A DNA stretch of 61,473 nt from Bacteroidales bacterium. GTDB lineage: Bacteria; Bacteroidota; Bacteroidia; Bacteroidales; F082. Location of the stretch: NCBI GenBank assembly GCA_030683155.1, contig JAUXMV010000048.1, positions 1 to 61,473 on the forward strand. Direction: 5' to 3'. Shown here in pieces: positions 33,010 through 43,763 of the stretch. The notes beneath the pieces are model-generated. The model was not told the origin of the DNA, ran no database searches, and saw only the letters and a program-made list of their open reading frames with translations. The first letter of the stretch is position 1. Every line of letters starts with the position of its first letter. Position numbers and translations under genes: made by a program.

Positions 33010-33567
33010 ATGATACCTGACATTCATTATAAAAATTGGCTCAAAAGTCTGAAACATAAAATCAAATCTGCTCAATTAAAAGCCGCAGTAACTGTAAATA
33101 CCCAGCTACTGGAACTGTATTGGGATTTAGGCAAAGACATTGCGCAAAAACAACAGGAAGCCAATTGGGGAGATGCTATTTTGGAACAACTGTCTATTGA
33201 TTTGAGATTGGCATTTCCTGATATGAAAGGGTTTTCCAGAAGAAACCTCTATGCAATCAAACAGTGGTATAGCTTTTTTAGTACTGAATCCGAATTTGTG
33301 CCACAGCCTGTGGCACAAATTCCTTGGGGACATAATCGCTTGATTGTATCCAAGATAAAAAATACCGAAGAAGCCTTGTTTTACTGCAAAATAACATTGC
33401 AAAACAGCTGGAGCAGAGATCAATTGGAAATCGCAATAAAAAATAACTGCTTTGAGACAAAAGGCAAATCCATTACCAAAATCACCTTTGCCAAGTCCGA
33501 AGCAGGTAAACCATCGCTAGAAACTTATAGTTTCAAGATGCCTCTGATAACAACTGAAGCACAATAA
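33010..33567 (+). CDS. Truncated DUF1016 (YhcG-type) protein
   Basis: A 185-residue protein matching the N-terminal domain of DUF1016/YhcG proteins: LLELYWDLGKDIAQKQ, WGDAILEQLSIDLRLAFPDMKGFSRRNL-type text, QIPWGHNRLIVSKI and SWSRDQLEIAI. Full-length members have about 340-380 residues with a C-terminal PDDEXK nuclease domain, which is missing here. After KGKSITKITF the sequence leaves the family pattern and the frame runs 43 bases into the 3' end of the convergent tcdA gene, so a deletion probably removed the nuclease half. Any remaining function would be DNA or protein binding. The neighbouring fragment at 32811 suggests a decayed accessory locus. Confidence 0.7.
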   Translation: MIPDIHYKNWLKSLKHKIKSAQLKAAVTVNTQLLELYWDLGKDIAQKQQEANWGDAILEQLSIDLRLAFPDMKGFSRRNLYAIKQWYSFFSTESEFVPQPVAQIPWGHNRLIVSKIKNTEEALFYCKITLQNSWSRDQLEIAIKNNCFETKGKSITKITFAKSEAGKPSLETYSFKMPLITTEAQ

Positions 33568-34247
33568 CAACCAAAGATGGCAGGCATATAGGAGATTGTT
33601 CCCACGGTAGACCTTTTGTTGAATTCGCCACGTTCGGCTATCACGGCACTTCTTGAAACTACTTCCGGCGAATAAACGGCAGTGATGCCTGTCCATACAT
33701 CCAGTTTGTGCAGTTTTTTACGGATATAATAGGCCAGCCGGCAATTGTTGGTTTCGTTGATATCGACAATCTGAATCATTTGCGGATCAAATTTTCCTCC
33801 TGCACCCATCGAACTTACAACGGGCAAACCAAACTTATGTGCATAATAGAGAAAGAAAACTTTTGGTGCCAGCGTGTCGATGGCATCAATTACGAAGTCG
33901 TAAGGATGACTTAAAACATCGATCAGACTTTGATCTTTGATATAGTGATTCACGATGATAAGTTCAATTTCGGGATTGATATCACGGAGTCTTTCAGCAA
34001 CAATATCAGTTTTATTTTTGCCCTCAGTGCTCAGAAGTGCCGGAAGCTGCCGGTTACGATTGCTAGCATGCACTGTATCTCCGTCAACAATTGTAAGTTT
34101 TCCAACACCTGCTCTTGCAAGTTGCTCTGCAGCATAAGCCCCAACTCCACCCAACCCGGCCACTAAAACATGACTTTGGTTCAATTTGTTCAGGTTTTCA
34201 CTACCCACAAGCAACTCGGTGCGGGTTTGCCAATGTTCATTCATCAA
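33525..34247 (-). CDS. tcdA: tRNA threonylcarbamoyladenosine dehydratase
   Basis: A 240-residue E1-like ATP-dependent enzyme (ThiF/HesA/MoeB family). It carries the nucleotide-binding VAGLGGVGAYAAEQLARAGV, then VDGDTVHASNRNRQ with the conserved Asp and Arg residues, NKTDIVAERL, and DAIDTLAPKV. TcdA cyclises t6A37 in ANN-decoding tRNAs. Adenylation-only members without a partner carrier protein are typically TcdA, and SSMGAGGKFDP fits that branch. Its start overlaps the end of tatD by 11 bases, so the two are one operon. Length is slightly below the E. coli enzyme (268). Confidence 0.9.
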   Translation of the reverse strand: MMNEHWQTRTELLVGSENLNKLNQSHVLVAGLGGVGAYAAEQLARAGVGKLTIVDGDTVHASNRNRQLPALLSTEGKNKTDIVAERLRDINPEIELIIVNHYIKDQSLIDVLSHPYDFVIDAIDTLAPKVFFLYYAHKFGLPVVSSMGAGGKFDPQMIQIVDINETNNCRLAYYIRKKLHKLDVWTGITAVYSPEVVSRSAVIAERGEFNKRSTVGTISYMPAIFGCYCASVVIRGILKL

Positions 34248-34929
34248 ATTTTATTTTAAAACAGCGGGCAAAATTAGCAAAGATGCCCGATTTTAAAGCA
34301 TCCAATGATAGCATACGACAATCGGCTGCTTTTTGGTAAATCTCCTCAATGTTGCCATTACTTTCGTCTGTTTCTAAAAACAGCTGCTCATTCGGCACTA
34401 TTATGAGTGCTGAAAGGAGCTTTTCATCCTCCTTGAGAAGAGCTGAACCAAAAGATAGGGAAATGCCTTGTTTTAACAGCTGAAGGGCAGTTTCATGTCC
34501 CCCTCTGAAACCATGCACAATCCAGATGCCTTTGGCTTTTGTCGATTTTCTGAGTTGGATGATCTCCCCAAACGTTCGTACAGCATGAATTATAAGTGGT
34601 TTTTTTGTTGTTTCCGCTAATTCTATCTGCATCCTGAAAACAGGAATCTGTGTTTCAATGGGTGTTTTAATGGCTTTATCGAGCCCAGCTTCACCAATTG
34701 CAACCACCTGAGGGTTTTTCACAGAATCCTGAAATGCCTGTTTCAGTTGGTCAATATTTCCATCTTCCAATTGCCAGGGATGAATGCCGACCGAATAAAA
34801 TCTATCAGTATCATTCGGAATCATTTCTCCCGCCAGCAAATTCTGAACTGAAACAATGCCGGATTCAGTTTTTTTGTTGCCGTGGCTGTGAATATCGATA
34901 AAGGGTATTATCAGGCTCATTTCAGGCAA
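34237..34929 (-). CDS. TatD-family metal-dependent hydrolase (short form)
   Basis: A 230-residue protein of the TatD DNase-like amidohydrolase family. Visible are IDIHSHG (metal His pair), YSVGIHPWQ, VAIGEAGLDKA, FRMQIELAETTKKPLIIHAVR, WIVHGFRGG and FLETDESNGNIEEIY. It is shorter than E. coli TatD (260), a form common in Bacteroidota. Family members are metal-dependent nucleases or esterases; the substrate here is unknown. It is the first gene of a two-gene unit with tcdA, 117 bases downstream of the sulfur-cluster operon on the same strand. Confidence 0.85.
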   Translation of the reverse strand: MPEMSLIIPFIDIHSHGNKKTESGIVSVQNLLAGEMIPNDTDRFYSVGIHPWQLEDGNIDQLKQAFQDSVKNPQVVAIGEAGLDKAIKTPIETQIPVFRMQIELAETTKKPLIIHAVRTFGEIIQLRKSTKAKGIWIVHGFRGGHETALQLLKQGISLSFGSALLKEDEKLLSALIIVPNEQLFLETDESNGNIEEIYQKAADCRMLSLDALKSGIFANFARCFKIKFDE

Positions 34930-35046: not shown

Positions 35047-35673
35047 TTAACAACCTCCGGCAACAGCTTTTATCTCAGTTGAACCCTGGGGTAATTGTGG
35101 GTTGGCAACAACTCCAGCCTTGCCTTTTGATTCGTTGCTAAAAAACCGTCCAAAATCAAAGCGGGCTTTTTCGGTATGCGTTTCAGCCACCTTTGGTTTG
35201 AAGTCATTAATAACAGATTTCTCAAAAAAGCTTGCATCATTGGCAACCGCAAAAACCTGTTGATAGCCTTTCGCCAATAATAGATGTACAGCGATCATCG
35301 CTTTTGATTCATCATCTGCAAAAAACAGTATTTTTTCATCCTTTTTCAGCTTTATCAGTTGATCTTTCTCAAGCAGCTGTGACAAAGGTATTTGAATAGT
35401 TTCCTTAAAAAGTTCAGATTTGGTGAGCTTTTCTGAACTCAAATCAACAGCTGTAAAAGTATTGATACTTCCATCATTGGCCATTTGCTTCAATTGCCAT
35501 GGTAAAATCAATACATTCTTTGAAAGAATTTTTTCGTGAACATCTTTGTTCGTTCGTGAGTAGGAGGGCGCCAAAATCCATTGGATGAACATGGAGCCAA
35601 TTATCACCAACACAAAAAGCAGTGCGGCGTTGGTGAGCATTTTATCGTTGAAACTTTTTTCCATTTTTTCCAT
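35047..35673 (-). CDS. Membrane-anchored degenerate rhodanese-like protein ending in Gly-Gly-Cys
   Basis: A 208-residue protein with one N-terminal membrane anchor (about 15-35, lysines before it), placing the rest in the periplasm. Residues about 50-150 follow the rhodanese fold (VLILPWQLKQ, FTAVDLSS, IQIPLSQLL, KILFFADDESKA, GYQQVFAV). The catalytic-loop Cys is absent: the loop reads FADDESKA (118-125). The only cysteine in the whole protein is the last residue, in the tail VAGGC. A flexible Gly/Pro/Gln segment precedes it. It is the last gene of a six-gene operon, 9 bases after the YeeE/YedE-rhodanese fusion. I infer a carrier of a thiol-bound sulfur group on the terminal Cys rather than a sulfurtransferase. 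Confidence 0.75.
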   Translation of the reverse strand: MEKMEKSFNDKMLTNAALLFVLVIIGSMFIQWILAPSYSRTNKDVHEKILSKNVLILPWQLKQMANDGSINTFTAVDLSSEKLTKSELFKETIQIPLSQLLEKDQLIKLKKDEKILFFADDESKAMIAVHLLLAKGYQQVFAVANDASFFEKSVINDFKPKVAETHTEKARFDFGRFFSNESKGKAGVVANPQLPQGSTEIKAVAGGC

Positions 35674-35682
35674 TTTTTTGGT

Positions 35683-36909
35683 TTAACAACCACCTTTACC
35701 TGCTGGAGGTGCTCCTATTTCGACAATTGTTTTTACAGGAGTTCCTTTGCTAACAACCTTTTCAGCTGCTTGTCCGGTTTTGAAAGCCTCCATAGCGCGC
35801 TCGCGAAATCTGGCATCAAATTGCTCCATCTCGCTTTTGCTATCCGTTTTATGTTCTTTTGCAAAAATTTCTTCAAAGAACCCATTCAAACCACCTTTGA
35901 GAACTCTAGCATTTTTTAAACCATTTCTGCTTGCAAGCATCCATGCCTGATCAGCGTTTGTAGAACTAAAACTGTAAAATACTATGGAGTTTTTCGATTC
36001 AAAAAGAATGCTTTTGTATTGCGGAAGCATGATTTCACTCAAAGGAATATTTATTGCTCCCGGAAAGCTAAACTGTTGAAAAGCGTCTTTTTCTCTCACG
36101 TCAATCAGCAGAAGATCGTTCGCCTTGGGATTTAAAAGTTTCCATGCCACTTCATTTATTTCAGCATAATGCCCTTCAGAGGTTACTTTGGCAAGAATTT
36201 CTTTTGCATCTTCTTCATGCCATTTTGCTTTTGGTGTTTCGGGCAGGAACAGAACAAGCAGTGCCAGTCCAAGCATCAGAGAAAAAGGCCCGTTATAGGA
36301 TGGATGAAACAAGCCGGGTGTTGAAGGAATTCCGTTTACTTTGTCTTCAATTTTTCGTGTTATAATAAAAGCTGTTAAAGCAATAGCTACAAGCATAAAC
36401 GTGAATAAATCTCGGCTCATTCCGAGGGAATCATAAACAAAAATGCCTCCAAATGCGTATCCGGTATAAATGGGCTCAAAAACGACATAAAGCGAACCAA
36501 ATATGAAAATGCCAATCATCATTCCGATGACGAAAACCATCGCATCGATCTTGCCAATAACAGCAGCAACAATACTTGTTCCGGGGCAAAAGCCACCCAG
36601 AATGAAGCCTACTCCCATTATCACACCACCAACGATGATGGACCAGAGGAATGTTGGATTGATATAGAGCAGGTCGTAGTCAATCCAACCTAAATATTGA
36701 AATAGCAACAAACCCAGCGCAGCCGTAGTGGCAGCGGTGAAAAACACGCGCAAAACCACAAAATCGTATCCGTAAAATACACCAGCCAGCTTACGGGAAT
36801 TAGAAAAACCACCCTGTTCGAGCACATATCCAAAGCCAAGTCCGATGACAAAGGCAAAGAAAAGACTCAGGTCGGGGTTAACAAATCCTTGAGGAATTAA
36901 AGGTCCCAT
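35683..36909 (-). CDS. YeeE/YedE transporter fused to a cysteine-less rhodanese domain, Gly-Gly-Cys tail
   Basis: A 408-residue protein. Residues 1-250 form about six to eight membrane segments with the YeeE/YedE signature GGFCPGTSIVAAVIGK (Cys108), which in thiosulfate transporters relays the substrate. Residues about 275-350 are a rhodanese domain (LLLIDVREKDAF, FPGAINIPLSEI, VLKGGLNGFF) whose active loop FYSFSSTNADQ lacks the Cys. A charged helix and Pro/Gly linker end in GKGGC. Only two cysteines exist: Cys108 and the terminal residue. I used ATG 36909; the longer frame to 36975 would overlap the preceding gene by 53 bases. Topology suggests the rhodanese and tail are periplasmic. Confidence 0.85.
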   Translation of the reverse strand: MGPLIPQGFVNPDLSLFFAFVIGLGFGYVLEQGGFSNSRKLAGVFYGYDFVVLRVFFTAATTAALGLLLFQYLGWIDYDLLYINPTFLWSIIVGGVIMGVGFILGGFCPGTSIVAAVIGKIDAMVFVIGMMIGIFIFGSLYVVFEPIYTGYAFGGIFVYDSLGMSRDLFTFMLVAIALTAFIITRKIEDKVNGIPSTPGLFHPSYNGPFSLMLGLALLVLFLPETPKAKWHEEDAKEILAKVTSEGHYAEINEVAWKLLNPKANDLLLIDVREKDAFQQFSFPGAINIPLSEIMLPQYKSILFESKNSIVFYSFSSTNADQAWMLASRNGLKNARVLKGGLNGFFEEIFAKEHKTDSKSEMEQFDARFRERAMEAFKTGQAAEKVVSKGTPVKTIVEIGAPPAGKGGC

Positions 36910-36922
36910 TGTTTCGGTGTTT

Positions 36923-37447
36923 TTAGTGAATCCAAAGTTTTCTGAAGAAATAGGCAACCACATATCCTGTCCCAAAAATTGCCATCATGGTCAGGAATCC
37001 AGCGCTGGAAAGTACAGCCATGCCGCTCAGCGCTGCACCACTGGTGCAACCGCGTCCAAATTGCGATCCAAGGCCGAAAAGTATTCCACCCATAGCGGCA
37101 AAAAGCAATCTGATGCCATTGCTGATTTGTGGTCCTTTATCAATCGCAAAACCTGCACGTCCCGACATAAAGCCAGAAAAGAAGGCGCCTCCCAGTACAC
37201 CAATTACCAGATAAACGAGCCAGTTTTTCATCGGACGGCCATCGCCATCGGCAAAAAAAGCGGAATAGAAAGGATGTTCGGCAGCATAGTCGGGAGCAAC
37301 TCTGCCTACAGTTTCAACGACAACACTTTTAGCTGCACCGCTGGCTCCCAATCCCCTTCCGGTGATAAAAAACGATGCCAAAAGCACCAGCCCCAGCAGA
37401 AATCCTGCCAGATAGGGGTTCATATAAGGTTTAGGTTTTTGTTCCAT
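36923..37447 (-). CDS. YeeE/YedE family transporter half
   Basis: A 174-residue membrane protein with four to five hydrophobic segments and the family signature FGRGCTSGAALSG (Cys134, its only cysteine). Two-gene YeeE/YedE systems, one copy with GRGCTSG and the next with GGFCPG, are known as PmpA/PmpB-like or split thiosulfate transporters, and this gene plus the following fusion form such a pair. A large hydrophilic loop (about 45-75) is unusual. I prefer ATG 37447 because the longer alternative (37471) would overlap the upstream stop. It lies 17 bases after the double-rhodanese gene. Confidence 0.88.
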   Translation of the reverse strand: MEQKPKPYMNPYLAGFLLGLVLLASFFITGRGLGASGAAKSVVVETVGRVAPDYAAEHPFYSAFFADGDGRPMKNWLVYLVIGVLGGAFFSGFMSGRAGFAIDKGPQISNGIRLLFAAMGGILFGLGSQFGRGCTSGAALSGMAVLSSAGFLTMMAIFGTGYVVAYFFRKLWIH

Positions 37448-37464
37448 TGTTCTTGTTTTTTTTA

Positions 37465-38544
37465 TTAACAACCACCTTGAACTGATTTCACTTCTGAAAG
37501 ATCCGATGCAGCAGGCATGTTTGTTTGCTGACCTGCTACAAGCGGGAAATTATTTTTATGCGATTCAAGCCACATTTGTGTAGGTTTGAAGCCTGCATTC
37601 TGCATTTTGCTGTGGGCAAAACTATTGGCTCCATAAAGTAAGGAGTATGCGTTGTAACCGAGCATCTGTAAAAATGCCGCTGTATGTGCTGAATGATGTC
37701 CGGTATAGCAATACAAAACAATGGCCTTGTCAGTTGGAAGCGTCAGCAAACCGGCTTCTGGTTTCAATGACTTTTTCGGTACATATTGCACGGAACCCTT
37801 TAAATGACCAAAAACGCTATAAGCGTCATCAGGCCAATAACTTACATTGTAGTACTTTTCAGGATTACCCGTTACTTCCCTGTAATCAATCAGGAATTTT
37901 TCTGATGATTGTTTTAAAAGTACTTCTGCACGTGCTTTGGCAATTTCAAAGCCATTGGATTTGCCTGTGTTGATTTGTGGCAATTTCGTTTCGGGAAGTT
38001 TTGGGTTAGGAGATAGTTCAAGCGCAGATTCCAGCTCATTTCCAACAGCAATTTCCCATCCGTTTTTAGCAAAATCATGGCTCCAACCACTCAGTCCAAA
38101 ACGAAAAGAGTAGGTGTTGTCGAATCCAAGCAAACGCATGATGCCGGTAACATAGGCTGAAAGTTGTCCGCGATTGCAAACAAAAACGATGTTTTCGAAG
38201 GAGGGAGCATCAATGACATTGGTAAAATAATCTAAAACACCGGCTGGTTCCACATTCACAGCACCGGAAATATGGGCTTGATCGAATTGCTCTTTTTCAC
38301 GCAGGTCAATGAAAAGGGTGTTTTTATCCTGAAGTGCATAGGCTGCTTCAGCCGTGAGAATTGCCGGTGCATCCGGACTATTGATGTAATCTCCATTTTG
38401 AATGAGGTATTCAAGTAAAATCTGAGATTCGTTTTCTACAATCTGCATTTTTGTTTCATCGCTCTTCGAACTGCAGGAAGTAAAAAACAGCATTAAGAAC
38501 GGAAGGGCAAAAAGCATTGATTTTATTAAATTTTCCTTTTTCAT
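37465..38544 (-). CDS. Double-rhodanese lipoprotein ending in Gly-Gly-Cys
   Basis: A 359-residue lipoprotein (lipobox FFTSC, Cys24) with two rhodanese domains. Domain 1 (about 60-165) has LFIDLREKEQF, HISGAVNVEP and active loop FVCNRGQLS (Cys123). Domain 2 (about 200-315) has FLIDYREVTG and active loop LYCYTGHHS (Cys279). Both catalytic cysteines are present, so it can carry persulfide, unlike its two downstream relatives. The chain ends KSVQGGC, adding a terminal thiol. It should face the periplasm or the cell surface. Its start overlaps the cytochrome b stop by 4 bases. The likely role is transferring sulfane sulfur between the octaheme cytochrome and the YeeE/YedE transporters. Confidence 0.87.
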   Translation of the reverse strand: MKKENLIKSMLFALPFLMLFFTSCSSKSDETKMQIVENESQILLEYLIQNGDYINSPDAPAILTAEAAYALQDKNTLFIDLREKEQFDQAHISGAVNVEPAGVLDYFTNVIDAPSFENIVFVCNRGQLSAYVTGIMRLLGFDNTYSFRFGLSGWSHDFAKNGWEIAVGNELESALELSPNPKLPETKLPQINTGKSNGFEIAKARAEVLLKQSSEKFLIDYREVTGNPEKYYNVSYWPDDAYSVFGHLKGSVQYVPKKSLKPEAGLLTLPTDKAIVLYCYTGHHSAHTAAFLQMLGYNAYSLLYGANSFAHSKMQNAGFKPTQMWLESHKNNFPLVAGQQTNMPAASDLSEVKSVQGGC

Positions 38545-39209
38545 GACTTTTGATTTGTTGATTCAACATCATCTTTCTTTTCATCAACTTCATCTTCTTC
38601 CTCGAGATCTTCCCATCCTGTAATCATTGCCTTAAGATTGGAAGTGATTGTATGTCCTGTTGTAATAAGGTAGAGGTGAACTATCACAAATGCCAGAACA
38701 ACAAAGGCACCAAAAGTGTGGATTACTGCAATAATTTCAAGACTTTCGATATTTGTGATGGCAATTTCGTCTCCCTGCGGATATCTGTAAAACATATAAA
38801 TGAGGCCGGAAACGACCATCACGGGTATGATCAGTATTTTAAGACCAAGATAAACGATTCTTTGCAAAGGGTTTAGCTTACTGATAAGCGTTTTCTTTGT
38901 GGGATGAGGAGCCTTTCTGAAGATACCAAAAAGGTAAAATTCCACCTGGGCCTGAAGGTTCTTGGTTGTTGGAATATACTGTCTCCATTCTCCGGTTGTG
39001 AAATGCCAAAAGATGGCAAAAACGATCAGAATGATGAAGCCCCATGCAGCCTTATTGTGTATATCCACAGCTGTTTCAAAGCCGAAAAAGGTGTATGAGC
39101 TATGAATTTCAAATCCGGTGAGGGCGAGCAGAAAGATGAGCAACGACTGATTCCAATGCCAGAAACGCTCGAATCCTTTATAGACATATGCTTTTTTTGG
39201 GTTTTTCAT
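38541..39209 (-). CDS. Membrane cytochrome b (cytochrome b561/b6-type)
   Basis: A 222-residue protein with four membrane helices and His residues placed as for two b hemes: FERFWHWNQ, FEIHSSY, VDIHNKAAW, FAIFWHFTTG, AVIHTFGAF and IVHLYLITTGH. Proteins of this type pass electrons between the quinone pool and a periplasmic multiheme partner. The gene lies 10 bases downstream of the octaheme cytochrome and overlaps the rhodanese gene by 4 bases. The C-terminus is highly acidic (EDLEEEDEVDEKKDDVE), presumably cytosolic. Confidence 0.88.
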   Translation of the reverse strand: MKNPKKAYVYKGFERFWHWNQSLLIFLLALTGFEIHSSYTFFGFETAVDIHNKAAWGFIILIVFAIFWHFTTGEWRQYIPTTKNLQAQVEFYLFGIFRKAPHPTKKTLISKLNPLQRIVYLGLKILIIPVMVVSGLIYMFYRYPQGDEIAITNIESLEIIAVIHTFGAFVVLAFVIVHLYLITTGHTITSNLKAMITGWEDLEEEDEVDEKKDDVESTNQKS

Positions 39210-39219
39210 GACTTAGGTT

Positions 39220-40818
39220 TTAGAGTGTTTGGATTGATTTTCTCCTTTTACGTGCAGCAAGGATGCGAATAAATGAGTGAACCATGACGCCGATAAAAGA
39301 CAAGATTAACAACATTTGTCCGGCAAAATCAAGCAATTCGTTTCTGTCACGGCCTGGCATATAGAAATCTGTCAAGGCAGCCAACCGTCCGTTTTCGCGT
39401 GTATGACATTCTTTACAACTAACTACCTCCGATTTTGGAGAAACCATATGGTTCACGGGAAGATACATTTCTGTATCGATAAAATCATGCTTGCCGCTGT
39501 AGGGCATTCCCACATAAGCCATTCCTTCTTCGATAGCGCGTTCCCATTCAAGATCCAGCCAAAGTGCGCCTTTACCCGTTTCCTTGTCCCAAAGCTTGGT
39601 CTGAATAACTGTCAGATTTTCAGTGTCATAGGGTTGTCTTCCACGGTGAACTTTCATCGGAATAATCTTACTCTTCGGGTCGCTGTATTTTCCAAATAAG
39701 GTATTAATTTTCAAAAACGCCTGTGTTGTATCCACTTTATCGGTCATCAAATGGTGATCCGCTGTTCCATTGAACCAAGTATATTCAGGAACTACATTTT
39801 TTTCCCATACAAAATCACCTTTGATGGAAGTGTATAATTGGTTGCCATCTTCATCGAGCTCTTCATAACCTTTACCATCTTTTTTGCGCGTTGCTGTTGA
39901 CCAATCCCAATACATTTTAGTAGCATTGACTTTGGCATAAACAGGGATATGGCAAGTCTGACAAGCGACTTTTATGCTGTGTTCATTGAGAATGCTTTTT
40001 TGGTGGGGGAATGCTGTATGACATTCCTCACAGCTCATGCGATCCTTATCGGTTGAAGAAATGCCATAATAACGACCTTTCATTTTGTGGTTTTCTGCTG
40101 TGTGGCAATTGACGCAACTCATATTCATCCCGTCAACACCCATATGTACATCCACATCGCGACCGGCAGTTAACAGTGCAATTTCAAGATCGCCATGTTT
40201 TACATTGTTTCCGCCGCCGCCACTAAAGTGACAACTACCGCAGTTTTCGCTTTTTGGTAGTCCCATACTTCCAAGAATGGCCTTAAAATCAGGACCGGTT
40301 TCTCCCATCACAGGATAGCCTGCGCCACCACTTGCTTTTAGGTAAGTGCCTGTATTGTCATGACAAACGATGCAGTCAATGTTGTAAGGGTTTTCAAAAT
40401 CAAAATCTTTATCGTCCCATCCAAAGCCGGCATGGCATTTCATGCAGCTTCCTTCGTTGGATTGCACACCCGTGCAGAAATTATTCAATAGATTTTTTTT
40501 ACCAATATAAGTAATACCTCTTCCGGGAATATATTCTTCACGTTCCCATTTAAAATGAGCACTTTGTAGCAGCTCATGTCCTCTTTCGGTGTGGCATGAA
40601 AGACAAGCTGCTGTTATTTCATGAGGATTTTTGAAGTCTTGCTGAAGAATTTCCATTTTGCTGTGGTCAACTCCGGACTGATGTTCCACAAGATACTTCT
40701 CCCTCAGATTATCTAACATTCTTTGGTCTTCTTTCGGCTGTCGGAGCGCTACCGTCACAATGATAAGAGGCGCTATCACAGCTAAAAAGAAGGTGATTGC
40801 TGTTGTGAATTTTTTCAT
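39220..40818 (-). CDS. Octaheme c-type cytochrome, tetrathionate reductase family
   Basis: A 532-residue periplasmic protein with exactly eight CxxCH motifs between residues 72 and 472 (CLSCH, CMKCH, CIVCH, CGSCH, CVNCH, CEECH, CQTCH, CKECH). It has an N-terminal signal anchor (about 4-25) and a C-terminal membrane helix (about 500-520) followed by basic residues. The spacing and the context with cytochrome b match the octaheme tetrathionate reductase (OTR) family. The Shewanella enzyme reduces tetrathionate, nitrite and hydroxylamine in vitro. The physiological substrate is uncertain, but the rhodanese and YeeE/YedE genes in the same operon argue for a sulfur compound. It is the first gene of the operon. 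Confidence 0.92.
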   Translation of the reverse strand: MKKFTTAITFFLAVIAPLIIVTVALRQPKEDQRMLDNLREKYLVEHQSGVDHSKMEILQQDFKNPHEITAACLSCHTERGHELLQSAHFKWEREEYIPGRGITYIGKKNLLNNFCTGVQSNEGSCMKCHAGFGWDDKDFDFENPYNIDCIVCHDNTGTYLKASGGAGYPVMGETGPDFKAILGSMGLPKSENCGSCHFSGGGGNNVKHGDLEIALLTAGRDVDVHMGVDGMNMSCVNCHTAENHKMKGRYYGISSTDKDRMSCEECHTAFPHQKSILNEHSIKVACQTCHIPVYAKVNATKMYWDWSTATRKKDGKGYEELDEDGNQLYTSIKGDFVWEKNVVPEYTWFNGTADHHLMTDKVDTTQAFLKINTLFGKYSDPKSKIIPMKVHRGRQPYDTENLTVIQTKLWDKETGKGALWLDLEWERAIEEGMAYVGMPYSGKHDFIDTEMYLPVNHMVSPKSEVVSCKECHTRENGRLAALTDFYMPGRDRNELLDFAGQMLLILSFIGVMVHSFIRILAARKRRKSIQTL

Positions 40819-41322: not shown

Positions 41323-42717
41323 ATGGACGTTGAAATACTATCACGGATTCAGTTTGCTTTCACCATTTCCTTTCATTATATCTACCCTCCGCTAAGTATT
41401 GGCTTAGGTTTGATGATGGTTATTTTTGAAGGTGCTTACATCCGGACACGAGTTAAAATGTATGAACAATTGGCAAGGTTTTGGACAAAAATCTTTGCAA
41501 TCACTTTTGGATTGGGTGTAGCAACAGGTATTGTGATGGAGTTTGAGTTTGGAACCAACTGGGCTACATATTCACGTTTTGTTGGCGATGTTTTCGGAAG
41601 TGCATTGGCAGCTGAGGGCATTTTTGCGTTTGCACTTGAAAGCGGATTTCTTGGTGTTTTGCTTTTTGGCTGGAACATAGTAAAGCCAATCGTGCATTTC
41701 ATTTCAACGATTGGTGTATTTTTTGGCTCAATGTTTTCTGCTGTCTGGATTGTTATTGCAAACAGCTGGCAGCAAACCCCTGCAGGATATCACATTGTGG
41801 GTGAAGGCACAGCAGCCAGAGCAGAAATAATTGACTTTTGGGCCATGGTATTCAATCCATCCAGTGTCGACAGGATTCTTCACGTATGGATTGGAGCGCT
41901 TATTGCAGGGGCTTTCTTGGTAATGAGCGTTCATGCATGGTATTTAGTAAAAGGAAGATATGTTGAAATGTCGAAAAAGGCTTTTGTGTTAGCACTTTCA
42001 GTTGCTGCATTGTTTTCGGTGCTTCAACTGGTCACAGGACATAGTTCGGCTGCAGGAGTTTCAGAAAATCAACCTGCTAAACTGGCAGCTTTCGAAGGGC
42101 ATTATAACAGCACTGATGCTGCAGACCTATATCTTTTTGGCTGGGTTGATCAAAAAAATCAAAAAGTTTATGGTCCTTATGTTCCCGGCGGCTTAAGCTT
42201 TTTGCTTTACAACAATTTCGATACCCCTGTCAAGGGTTTGAATGACTTTCCGCAAGATGAGATTCCAACACAAGTAAATACCGTATTTCAATTTTACCAT
42301 CTGATGGTTGCTTTTGGACTTTATTTTATTGGGCTTACGCTTTTTGGTCTTTTCCTATGGTGGAGGGGAAAACTTTTCGAGTATAAGTGGCTGTTGTGGG
42401 TGTTCGTTTTTTCGGTTCTGTTACCGCAGCTTGCCAATCAATTTGGATGGTTTGCTGCCGAAATGGGCCGTCAGCCCTGGGTTGTTTATGGCTTGCTAAA
42501 AACATCGGATGCGCTTTCTGTTGTTGTAACAGCCAATCAGGTTCTGTTTTCATTGATCATGTTTACTTTGATTTATGCACTACTCTTTGTTCTTTTCCTT
42601 TATCTCATGGACAAGAAAATTAAAGCAGGACCTTATGACGAAAGCAATACCGACATGCATCAGGGGCAAAAAGAGATCATGGAAGTGCTTGACACAAATG
42701 TTTCACATCAATCCTAA
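41323..42717 (+). CDS. cydA: Cytochrome bd ubiquinol oxidase subunit I
   Basis: A 464-residue integral membrane protein with about nine helices. It carries the heme ligands of the family (axial His in FTISFHYIYPP, His in DRILHVWIG, Met in AEMGRQPWVVYG), the quinol-loop start ENQPAKLAAFEGHY, and GFLGVLLFGW. It is shorter than the E. coli subunit (522), so the Q-loop is of the short type. Cytochrome bd oxidises quinol and reduces oxygen to water with high affinity, and protects anaerobes from oxygen, nitric oxide and sulfide stress. The cydB start is 11 bases downstream. Confidence 0.96.
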   Translation: MDVEILSRIQFAFTISFHYIYPPLSIGLGLMMVIFEGAYIRTRVKMYEQLARFWTKIFAITFGLGVATGIVMEFEFGTNWATYSRFVGDVFGSALAAEGIFAFALESGFLGVLLFGWNIVKPIVHFISTIGVFFGSMFSAVWIVIANSWQQTPAGYHIVGEGTAARAEIIDFWAMVFNPSSVDRILHVWIGALIAGAFLVMSVHAWYLVKGRYVEMSKKAFVLALSVAALFSVLQLVTGHSSAAGVSENQPAKLAAFEGHYNSTDAADLYLFGWVDQKNQKVYGPYVPGGLSFLLYNNFDTPVKGLNDFPQDEIPTQVNTVFQFYHLMVAFGLYFIGLTLFGLFLWWRGKLFEYKWLLWVFVFSVLLPQLANQFGWFAAEMGRQPWVVYGLLKTSDALSVVVTANQVLFSLIMFTLIYALLFVLFLYLMDKKIKAGPYDESNTDMHQGQKEIMEVLDTNVSHQS

Positions 42718-42728
42718 AAAGATAAATA

Positions 42729-43763
42729 ATGGCAACAATATTAGGTATAGATTATCCAACACTTTGGTTTTTGGTTGTAGGCGCACTTTTTTCGGGTTAT
42801 GCGATTCTTGATGGATTTGATCTTGGGGCTGGCGCATGGCATCTGTTTTTTAAAAAAGAAGAAAGCCGGCGAATAGCATTGAATGCAGTTGGTCCGGTGT
42901 GGGATGGCAACGAAGTATGGCTGGTCATTGGAGGCGGCGCGCTTTTTGCCGGTTTCCCGATTTTGTATGCTTCCATGTTTTCAGGGATGTATATTCCATT
43001 TATGCTGTTTCTGTTTGCCTTAATTTTCAGAGCTGTTTCCATCGAATTCAGGTCGAAAGAGCAAATGAAATGGTGGCGAAAATCCTGGGACATCAGTTAT
43101 AGTGTCTCCAGTATTTTGATGGCAATTTTGCTTGGTGTTGTGGTTGGAAACATCCTTCAGGGAATAGCTATTGGCCCGGATTTTGAATTTCAGGGTCACT
43201 GGACTGAATTTTTGAACCCTTATGCAATATTGGTCGGTATAACAACATTAGCACTTTTTATGATGCATGGAGCTATTTATCTGGCAATGAAGACAGAAGG
43301 AAAGCTCTTCGAAAAAGTAAATGACCTGCTTAAGAAATCTATAATCTTCTTTATTGTAACATATTCTATAGTAACACTTTATACACTTATCTATTTGCCG
43401 CACCTTTCGGATGACATATATGAAAATGTAGCCCTTTTCATTGTTCCTTTGCTGGCATTTCTAAGCATAGCCAATATACCCCGATTGGTCAGTAAAAGAA
43501 AATATGTTCATGCATTTCTGTTTTCAGCATTGTCAATGAGTTTTTTGCTCATTCTTGTAGCAATTGAACTTTATCCCGTCATGATTTTTTCTACAATCTC
43601 TCCAGAATTCAATCTCACAGTTTATAATGCAGCATCTTCCGAAAAATCACTTGGTATCATGCTTCTTATGACTGCAATAGGGGCTCCGCTGGTCATCACT
43701 TATACGGTTTTTGTGTATAAAACTTTTTGGGGAAAAGTTAAAATGGACGAAACGAGCTATTAA
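42729..43763 (+). CDS. cydB: Cytochrome bd ubiquinol oxidase subunit II
   Basis: A 344-residue membrane protein with about eight helices. The N-terminal YPTLWFLVVGALFSGY and ILDGFDLGAGAWH (conserved Asp and Gly positions), VGPVWDGNEVWLV and FPILYASMFSGMYIPFM are diagnostic for CydB. It follows cydA in the same operon. No cydX-like small gene or cydDC transporter is found in the window. Confidence 0.95.
   Translation: MATILGIDYPTLWFLVVGALFSGYAILDGFDLGAGAWHLFFKKEESRRIALNAVGPVWDGNEVWLVIGGGALFAGFPILYASMFSGMYIPFMLFLFALIFRAVSIEFRSKEQMKWWRKSWDISYSVSSILMAILLGVVVGNILQGIAIGPDFEFQGHWTEFLNPYAILVGITTLALFMMHGAIYLAMKTEGKLFEKVNDLLKKSIIFFIVTYSIVTLYTLIYLPHLSDDIYENVALFIVPLLAFLSIANIPRLVSKRKYVHAFLFSALSMSFLLILVAIELYPVMIFSTISPEFNLTVYNAASSEKSLGIMLLMTAIGAPLVITYTVFVYKTFWGKVKMDETSY

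Follow-up and report, generated by a model that had tools for sequence, protein, structure and literature searches.

A cysteine-tipped tail on rhodanese proteins, found on three adjacent proteins of a Bacteroidales sulfur gene cluster, was present at all but one of the distinct loci examined that carry a split YeeE transporter. Nearly all the domains bearing it have lost the catalytic cysteine of rhodaneses. We infer, with about even confidence, that the tail of these inactive rhodaneses is a persulfide arm in the periplasm which would dock on YeeE.

Results

Gene cluster and cysteine tails

The window, i.e. the whole stretch of DNA that was analysed (61,473 nucleotides), contained the cluster listed in Table 1. 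The sequence-only reading had reported Gly-Gly-Cys ends common to three adjacent proteins (VQGGC, GKGGC and VAGGC), each with TGT followed by TAA, and this was confirmed. The double rhodanese contained both active-site Cys loops (FVCNRG and LYCYTG) and a lipobox-like FFTSC. PF04143 was matched by both YeeE halves with 61.4 and 60.3 bits (cut-off 27). The start of the YeeE2-rhodanese fusion was placed at the ATG at 36909, with a TTG at 36975 as a less likely alternative. Rh3 scored 14.6 bits for PF00581, below the cut-off of 22.2, and its rhodanese fold was supported by an AlphaFold2 model (pLDDT 84.1) and by Foldseek matches to rhodaneses. The octaheme cytochrome (OTR) scored 564.9 bits for TIGR04315, above the cut-off of 375, and belongs to that family.

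Table 1. Cluster genes and tail codons in the window.
Feature	Position	Strand	Match or C-terminal end
Rh3, membrane-anchored rhodanese-fold protein without catalytic Cys	35047..35673	-	end EIKAVAGGC
Rh3 tail codons GGA GGT TGT, then TAA	35050..35058	-	
YeeE2 (PmpB-like half) fused to rhodanese domain without catalytic Cys	35683..36909	-	end AGKGGC
Fusion tail codons GGT GGT TGT, then TAA	35686..35694	-	
YeeE1, PmpA-like half of YeeE transporter	36923..37447	-	PF04143 60.3 bits; Cys in GRGCTSG
Double-rhodanese lipoprotein	37465..38544	-	PF00581 92.2 bits, two stretches; end EVKSVQGGC
Double-rhodanese tail codons GGT GGT TGT, then TAA	37468..37476	-	
Cytochrome b561-type membrane subunit, same cluster, without tail	38541..39209	-	PF01292 99.2 bits
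Octaheme tetrathionate-reductase-family cytochrome (OTR), same cluster, without tail	39220..40818	-	TIGR04315; 1sp3

In a complete listing for the 4.74-Mb genome, GGNGGNTGYTRR occurred at 40 places; 30 of them had a real stop codon and ten read TGG. The raw DNA pattern was not enriched: with TAA it occurred at 11 places and its reverse at 14, and the overall numbers were 40 and 50. What is distinctive is which of these places are gene ends, and not their raw number. Only four open frames of at least 40 amino acids in the genome ended in Gly-Gly-Cys, namely the three of the window and one from a second octaheme cluster (contig C89), which encodes a rhodanese lipoprotein of 172 aa (...ASSGGC). 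The possibility that the tail is equally common in unrelated proteins of the genome was looked at in this way, and nothing beyond the four frames was found. Around 140 stretches and in the window, 169 of 220 module proteins carried the tail, counted as GGC with at most one further residue, whereas 0 of the 1796 remaining ORFs from mechanical calling did. We concluded from the 0/1796 and from the four genome-wide frames that chance is ruled out as the origin of the tail. The module tail counts, as well as the within-operon matching sets described below, are slightly low because the greedy ORF caller missed some tailed proteins, at least Rh3 of loci L123 and L124 and one tailed rhodanese of L151.

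Conservation of the tail in relatives

Conservation of the terminal Cys in homologues of the same gene context held when checked: 138 of the 139 distinct loci examined that have a split YeeE transporter had a cysteine-tipped protein. Distinct-locus counts were obtained after removal of eight loci duplicating others. The 80 named loci are the best 80 of at least 543 confirmed, a non-random sample, while the surveys of 395 genomes were an even draw from the phylum; the OTR loci examined are most of the survey OTR places over the cut-off. Loci L134, L151 and L158 belong to the cultured relatives Yeosuana, Flavivirga and Carboxylicivirga, respectively. The tail was absent from unfused YeeE2 (0/28) and present on 66 of 70 single rhodaneses and 80 of 86 fusions, and therefore goes with the rhodanese and not with YeeE2. 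Many loci had a single tailed protein only.

Of 187 rhodanese parts, a set that includes tail-less members and a few doubtful ones, 181 had Cys at the final or penultimate position. Gly-Gly preceded it in 152 of the 187 and was thus less constant than the Cys itself. Variants with one extra residue (GGCA, GGCS, GGCG, GGCT) occurred, and distant tails read EGC, MGC or RGC. A sorting or processing signal, either for anchoring at the C-terminal Cys or for trimming that leaves an exposed Gly-Gly end, as in the thiocarboxylate carrier QbsE, would fit the Gly-Gly next to the end and the variants with an extra residue. We consider it highly unlikely, as the Cys is more constant than the Gly-Gly, the distant tails lack the pair, and most tailed proteins already carry a lipobox-like motif or a hydrophobic anchor. 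Moreover, thiocarboxylate formation requires ATP and an E1-like enzyme, which are not expected in the periplasm.

Outside Bacteroidota one example was found, a rhodanese beside a YeeE1 match on a Gemmatirosa plasmid, which ends RRRGC and is without catalytic Cys; loci L140 and L181, labelled LCP-89 and Holophagaceae, are metagenome bins. In contrast, a YeeE-adjacent rhodanese of Cupriavidus had the catalytic Cys and no tail, and no Cys tip was found on the three translated neighbours of betaproteobacterial split YeeE pairs on two plasmids. A search of the open-access literature found no description of this tail in rhodanese/YeeE systems.

The tail follows YeeE rather than the octaheme cytochrome

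The octaheme cytochrome had been suggested as the common partner of the tails. This did not hold: among OTR loci whose stretch lacks YeeE, 23 of 24 had no tail (0 of 375 ORFs at these 23 loci end in GC), although the 23 are not independent because many come from one family (f19). Where a PhsA-like Mo enzyme replaces OTR beside YeeE, 46 of 47 loci were tailed. The tail therefore follows YeeE rather than OTR, which rules out the octaheme cytochrome as the general shared partner.

A wider form of that suggestion involves two enzymes. By analogy with SoxXA and SoxCD, which act on the SoxY arm, the active-site channel of each operon's redox enzyme might be where the tail docks, so that OTR (type I) or the PhsA-like Mo enzyme (type II) would use tail-bound sulfur as its substrate. 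One or the other enzyme was found at 129 of 147 YeeE loci (duplicates kept), 126 of these 129 being tailed, and the C89 cluster of the same genome has OTR and a tailed rhodanese with no YeeE in its 18-kb stretch. The tailed rhodanese of C89 has an intact active Cys, and the cluster counts against docking on YeeE. We nevertheless regard docking in the redox enzyme as unlikely: in addition to the tail-less OTR loci, sulfurtransferase YeeE loci without a redox enzyme in the stretch (L223, L224, L225, L227) keep ...LVRMGC or ...LMRMGC, and the same tail would have to be read by two unrelated enzymes. L123 and L124, also loci without redox enzyme, keep a tailed Rh3 (...TPVIGGC).

Matching tails within operons

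In a shuffle test, tails were alike across different proteins of one operon and unlike between operons, EEEEGGC and KKRVAEGGC being tails of two different operons. For the last six residues, the two single rhodaneses (sR1-sR2, 16 loci) matched with z 9.4 (0/10000 shuffles), the double and single rhodanese (dRh-sR2, 19 loci) with z 6.3 (0/10000) and the fusion and single rhodanese (Fus-sR2, 19 loci) with z 3.4 (4/10000). Matching of fusion and double rhodanese (17 loci) was weak, with 808/10000 for the last six, 60/10000 for the last ten and 268/10000 for the last four residues. The permutation test omits the type II rhodanese L110:4118 and the uninformative two-locus pair sR1-dRh. Control stretches 30–50 residues before the end gave no match in seven of eight tests, the exception being dRh-sR2 at -40..-30 (43/10000). 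When shuffling was kept within groups of operons joined at a YeeE1 identity of 65% or more, the matching persisted (0, 0 and 1 of 5000 for sR1-sR2, dRh-sR2 and Fus-sR2, covering 13/16, 15/19 and 18/19 loci), which is a mild control because one large group holds most loci. The earlier proposal of one docking signal with a common reader was thus borne out as far as the signal-like matching within operons is concerned, but not for the octaheme cytochrome as the reader.

Tails could also be alike because adjacent genes were recently duplicated or underwent gene conversion. In the shared tail runs, 121 of 199 codons were identical (14 of 35 loci, chosen for alike tails). The Lutibacter operons L162, L167 and L169, with 11/12, 18/19 and 16/19 identical codons in the shared runs, would suit conversion, and in type II operons the pair of rhodaneses may be paralogous. 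Elsewhere the same amino acids were written with differing codons (7/18 identical in L156, 6/12 in L144, 4/8 in L163), about half of the codons differing in other pairs. The upstream stretches were unmatched, one of the eight tests apart, and the double rhodanese shares the tail despite a body of another architecture. Such a mere copying of neighbouring ends is very improbable as the cause, and has already been largely refuted.

A further explanation is that the terminal cysteines form an assembly clamp, through disulfides with each other or with one scaffold, and carry no sulfur. Several tailed proteins per operon with matching sequences, and a tail Cys that is often the only one of the soluble part, agree with a clamp, but the many loci with a single tailed protein do not, the adjacent genes are for sulfur transfer, and a clamp gives no reason why the rhodaneses lost their catalytic Cys. 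We judged the clamp to be distinctly improbable.

Another reading of the matching, which we hold to be somewhat less probable than its contrary, is that the tail is an operon-specific docking code, kept alike by selection while drifting between lineages, by which periplasmic proteins of different architecture would deliver sulfur via one split-YeeE port, with inactive rhodaneses as holders of a swinging persulfide arm.

Rhodanese bodies without the catalytic cysteine

In a MAFFT alignment of single domains and fusions, the catalytic column was Cys in only 6 of 187 rhodanese parts; in the other 181 it was replaced, mostly by Ser, Ala or Gly. Of 32 double rhodaneses, 23 had two active-site Cys loops and eight had one. 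The tail Cys was the sole Cys in 132 of the 187 parts (last in 117, last but one in 15).

The tail was disordered in both AlphaFold2 models made, those of the fusion and of Rh3; the fusion model was of modest quality (pLDDT 68.5) and did not place the tail position. The proposed thiol swinging arm gained partial support from these results, namely from the conserved tail, from its disorder in the models and from the sole Cys in 132/187 parts, as such an arm needs. The linker had been described as flexible and rich in Pro/Gly/Ser; the models agree with the flexibility, but the linkers of many relatives are Lys-rich.

A periplasmic side was indicated for the double rhodaneses by a lipobox-like motif in 15 of 20 tailed members. 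The ends of unfused YeeE2, mostly basic segments such as RKRVKKVFY, were counted for the periplasmic side, and positive-inside counts of single rhodaneses showed only a tendency towards it (30 for, 16 against, rest tied; n = 68).

Channel cysteines of YeeE

The YeeE1 Cys (in GRGCTSG) was kept in 102 of 102 homologues and aligned with TsuA Cys293 in an alignment to 8j4c, with a weak score (E 0.12). Cys108 of YeeE2, corresponding to the Cys91 position, was found in 26 of 26 aligned fusions; in the wider set the count was 109/109, partly by construction because YeeE2 was recognised by the [CS]PG[TS] motif. At the third channel position, that of TsuA Cys22 with the TsuA register set by eye, no Cys was found, but Ser (104/109) or Gly (5/109). 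The published split PmpAB likewise has one Cys per half only (PMC11582611). A YeeE transporter was not among the best 50 Foldseek matches of the fusion model, nor was one found in a profile search of solved structures with E up to 1.

Discussion

In the mechanism that we propose, the tail would be a flexible periplasmic thiol arm, with sulfane sulfur carried on its terminal Cys as a persulfide or thiosulfonate. The arm might be loaded by an active partner, i.e. the double rhodanese/TST or products of the OTR or PhsA-like enzyme. Once loaded it would dock at the periplasmic mouth of YeeE and pass the sulfur to the first channel cysteine (the one aligned with TsuA Cys293) for import. A fused carrier would be tethered to its own transporter. 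One docking port could be common to several tailed proteins, and the tails of an operon would therefore change together.

For the YeeE-like SoxT, it has been called conceivable that sulfur moves from the cysteine of SoxY to those of the channel, while direct Cys-to-Cys transfer at a spacing of about 7 Å was called questionable by the same authors (PMC11582611). In that paper, carrier-bound presentation of periplasmic sulfur to YeeE-like importers is treated as a model and as unsettled (PMC11582611). Because the carrier arm is fused to the transporter and its terminal Cys is near-invariant, the question of sulfur presentation becomes directly testable by a one-residue change, and the arm offers a reason for rhodanese domains without the catalytic Cys. 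Matching tails on different proteins of one operon would be a rare instance in which several proteins follow a single binding site. A terminal GC beside YeeE also provides an annotation marker for sulfur modules of Bacteroidota.

In the Sox pathway of thiosulfate oxidation, SoxY bears a GGCGG motif on its C-terminal arm. The tails described here share with it the C-terminal Gly-Gly-Cys, the flexible arm, the periplasmic location and the sulfur context, but they stop at GGC or GGC plus one residue, so that the Cys is last or last but one, and the body is an inactive rhodanese fold that is membrane-anchored or fused to YeeE. No SoxY-type family was found for the window proteins in Pfam or NCBIfam at E up to 0.1. 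By analogy the arm would thus resemble that of SoxY in function, not in family. Sulfur from SoxYZ has been discussed as reaching SoxT (PMC11582611).

The transporter resembles YeeE/TsuA, whose system includes YeeD/TsuB, and the split PmpA/PmpB, YeeE1 being PmpA-like with the Cys293 position and YeeE2 PmpB-like with the Cys91 position. It differs from TsuA in the Ser or Gly at the Cys22 position and in the Cys-tailed rhodanese fused or adjacent to it; a YeeD/TusA match was not obtained among the six cluster proteins scanned. In DsrC/TusE, too, a redox/sulfur Cys lies close to the tip of a flexible C-terminal arm, but these proteins are cytoplasmic, have another fold and use two-Cys chemistry. 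The single-domain rhodaneses GlpE, PspE and YgaP share the fold (assigned by Pfam for the fusion, and by AlphaFold2 and Foldseek for Rh3); they differ in that nearly all the proteins studied here have the catalytic Cys replaced and carry a Cys at the C-terminal tip instead.

The tail in the window and in its own genome

The three Gly-Gly-Cys ends reported in the sequence-only reading, together with their codons, were all seen in the translated window (see table). The cluster comprises an octaheme cytochrome of the tetrathionate reductase family (OTR; TIGR04315, 564.9 bits), cytochrome b561, the double rhodanese, YeeE1, the YeeE2-rhodanese fusion and Rh3, a membrane-anchored rhodanese-fold protein; YeeE1 and YeeE2 are the PmpA-like and PmpB-like halves of the split YeeE transporter. 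Two cytochrome bd oxidase subunit-like genes (41323-43763, by sequence look) adjoin it on the opposite strand. Directly downstream of Rh3 lie ThiF/TcdA-like and TatD-like ORFs (33525-34929, by eye), for which an E1-like partnership with the tail was considered and dropped.

Tailed ORFs of the window
Feature	Position	Strand	C-terminal end
Double-rhodanese lipoprotein	37465-38544	(-)	Gly-Gly-Cys, TGT TAA
YeeE2-rhodanese fusion	35683-36909	(-)	Gly-Gly-Cys, TGT TAA
Rh3, small anchored protein	35047-35673	(-)	Gly-Gly-Cys, TGT TAA

The whole genome was scanned for every possible Gly-Gly-Cys-stop pattern, which occurred at 40 places, 30 of them with a true stop codon. Only four open frames of at least 40 aa ended there: the three window ORFs and a 172-aa rhodanese lipoprotein on another contig, C89, in the second octaheme cluster of this genome. 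The stretch fetched from that contig (L050, 82000-100000) encodes OTR, cytochrome b, the 172-aa lipoprotein ending SSGGC, a double rhodanese, a porin-like protein and a two-domain sulfurtransferase; no YeeE was found within it.

Conservation of the tail

Relatives were sampled as 60 fetched stretches, as 80 named loci obtained with a YeeE2 profile (the best 80 of at least 543 confirmed), and as 31 more YeeE loci out of a survey of 395 genomes drawn from the phylum, 55 of which contained the octaheme family above cut-off. In the first sample and the window 29 of 994 ORFs ended in GGC, and each of the 29 encoded either a YeeE2-rhodanese or a rhodanese within these clusters. Counting GGC plus one residue as well, the tail was present on 169/220 module proteins and on 0/1796 other ORFs (140 stretches, L050-L189, and the window), so that it was not equally common in unrelated proteins. 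With duplicates removed, 66/70 single rhodaneses, 80/86 YeeE2-rhodanese fusions, 20/32 double rhodaneses and 0/28 unfused YeeE2 proteins were tailed. A module protein with Cys last or last but one was found at 138 of the 139 distinct YeeE loci, the sole exception (L235) carrying a short 134-aa rhodanese. Distant relatives ended in KKKKEGC, KKKREGC or LVRMGC, and one Gemmatimonadota plasmid in RRRGC; the Gly-Cys tip persists even in tails that lack the first Gly. When 24 sequences, Rh3 and type II counterparts, were aligned, the columns without variation were one fold Gly and the tip G-x-C.

The tail follows YeeE

Type I clusters have the order octaheme cytochrome, cytochrome b, (double rhodanese), YeeE1, YeeE2-rhodanese fusion, (Rh3). 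Type II clusters contain a Mo oxidoreductase, an iron-sulfur subunit, an NrfD-type subunit, YeeE1, an unfused YeeE2, one or two separate tailed rhodaneses and sometimes a double rhodanese. The one type II Mo enzyme examined, of L131, had PhsA as its closest match, at 461 bits against a cut-off of 694. Operons of this PhsA-like kind, combining a split YeeE with tailed rhodaneses, were seen at further type II loci as well as at L131, L134, L151 and L163; named strains of Yeosuana and Flavivirga are among them. A third group (L223, L224, L225 and L227; sulfurtransferase-YeeE1-YeeE2-rhodanese, ending LVRMGC or LMRMGC) has only the sulfurtransferase beside YeeE, and neither OTR nor Mo enzyme in the stretch.

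For counts by context the tail was taken as GC plus at most one residue, and duplicates were kept in. The tail was conserved at 80/82 loci with octaheme cytochrome and YeeE, which answers the check proposed for homologues with an octaheme neighbour in favour of conservation, and at 46/47 with Mo enzyme and YeeE; it was also present at 17/18 YeeE loci with neither enzyme in the stretch. Octaheme loci without YeeE had it at 1/24, namely C89 of the own genome. Several stretches are truncated by the end of a contig, and one family accounts for many of these 24 loci. The octaheme cytochrome as general common partner was therefore rejected. Since the tail was present at nearly all YeeE loci and at one of 24 octaheme loci without YeeE, we concluded that it goes with YeeE, a rule that C89, with no YeeE in its stretch, breaks. 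The four misses among YeeE loci were L096 and L097 (GGLCS), L243 (FQC) and L235.

Loss of the catalytic cysteine

In 187 aligned rhodanese parts the catalytic column held Ser (71), Ala (56), Gly (49), Cys (6), Asp (4) or Tyr (1). Cys closed the sequence in 164 parts and stood one residue before the end in 17 more, and the tip Cys was the sole Cys of the rhodanese part in 132. Judged by the catalytic column, these rhodaneses would mostly be inactive enzymes that carry a new cysteine. The window double rhodanese has kept its active loops and has the tail as well, and the C89 lipoprotein has both tail and active-site Cys; in a betaproteobacterium, a rhodanese next to YeeE retains the catalytic Cys but is untailed. 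The component parts of the module are of known kinds. No description of the tail was found in the open-access literature searched. What appears to be new is the arm at the C-terminus of inactive rhodaneses, with its fusion to YeeE and its matching between proteins of an operon.

Location and structure

The double rhodanese should lie outside the inner membrane, because a lipobox-like motif was found in the window protein and in 15/20 tailed double rhodaneses. The C-terminal segments of unfused YeeE2 proteins are mostly basic, and 68/70 single rhodaneses have a hydrophobic N-terminal stretch with a modest tendency to follow the positive-inside rule (30 proteins in favour, 16 against); both would fit a rhodanese outside. 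The AlphaFold2 model of Rh3 had a confident rhodanese core (pLDDT 84.1; fold also found by Foldseek) and a disordered tail, residues 187-201 and 203-208 being under 50. The fusion model was poorer (68.5), its tail (384-408) disordered.

Matching tails within operons

At 35 loci with at least two tailed proteins, tails tended to be alike inside a locus and unlike across loci, e.g. EEEEGGC on three proteins of L163, GGGGGC on three of L136, RVAEGGC on two of L156 and TTIQGGC on two of L135. In the window, EVKSVQGGC of the double rhodanese resembles EIKAVAGGC of Rh3, and APPAGKGGC of the fusion less so. Partners were shuffled 10000 times, comparing the last six residues before GGC. Matching was strongest for two type II single rhodaneses (16 loci; z 9.4, 0/10000 shuffles), followed by double rhodanese with Rh3-type (19 loci; z 6.3, 0/10000), fusion with Rh3-type (19 loci; z 3.4, 4/10000) and fusion with double rhodanese (17 loci; z 1.4, 808/10000; 60 with the last ten residues, 268 with the last four). 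The pair of single and double rhodanese (two loci) was uninformative and left out. Control stretches 30-50 residues upstream gave no matching in 7/8 tests, the remaining one reaching 43/10000. Matching persisted when shuffling was confined to YeeE1-identity groups, one of which holds most loci.

Identical tails often used different codons (121/199 codons identical in 14 of the 35 loci, picked for alike tails; 7/18 in L156), which argues that selection on the protein, and not copying alone, keeps the tails alike. Three Lutibacter operons (L162, L167, L169) look recently homogenised, with 11/12, 18/19 and 16/19 tail codons identical between neighbouring rhodaneses.

Proposed role and channel cysteines

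We infer that the tailed proteins would be periplasmic carriers, whose terminal Cys would be loaded with sulfane sulfur, either by an active sulfurtransferase or through thiosulfate/tetrathionate chemistry, and would, after docking, deliver it to YeeE for import. Less probably, a redox enzyme would be the reader of the tail. The channel of TsuA (YeeE) has three cysteines, which follow one another as Cys293, Cys91 and Cys22; the last sits where TsuA meets cytoplasmic YeeD (PMC11073785). The first was kept by YeeE1 in 102/102, and the second by YeeE2 in 26/26 aligned fusions and in 109/109 of a larger set partly picked by that motif; the position of the third is Ser or Gly in YeeE2 (register by eye).
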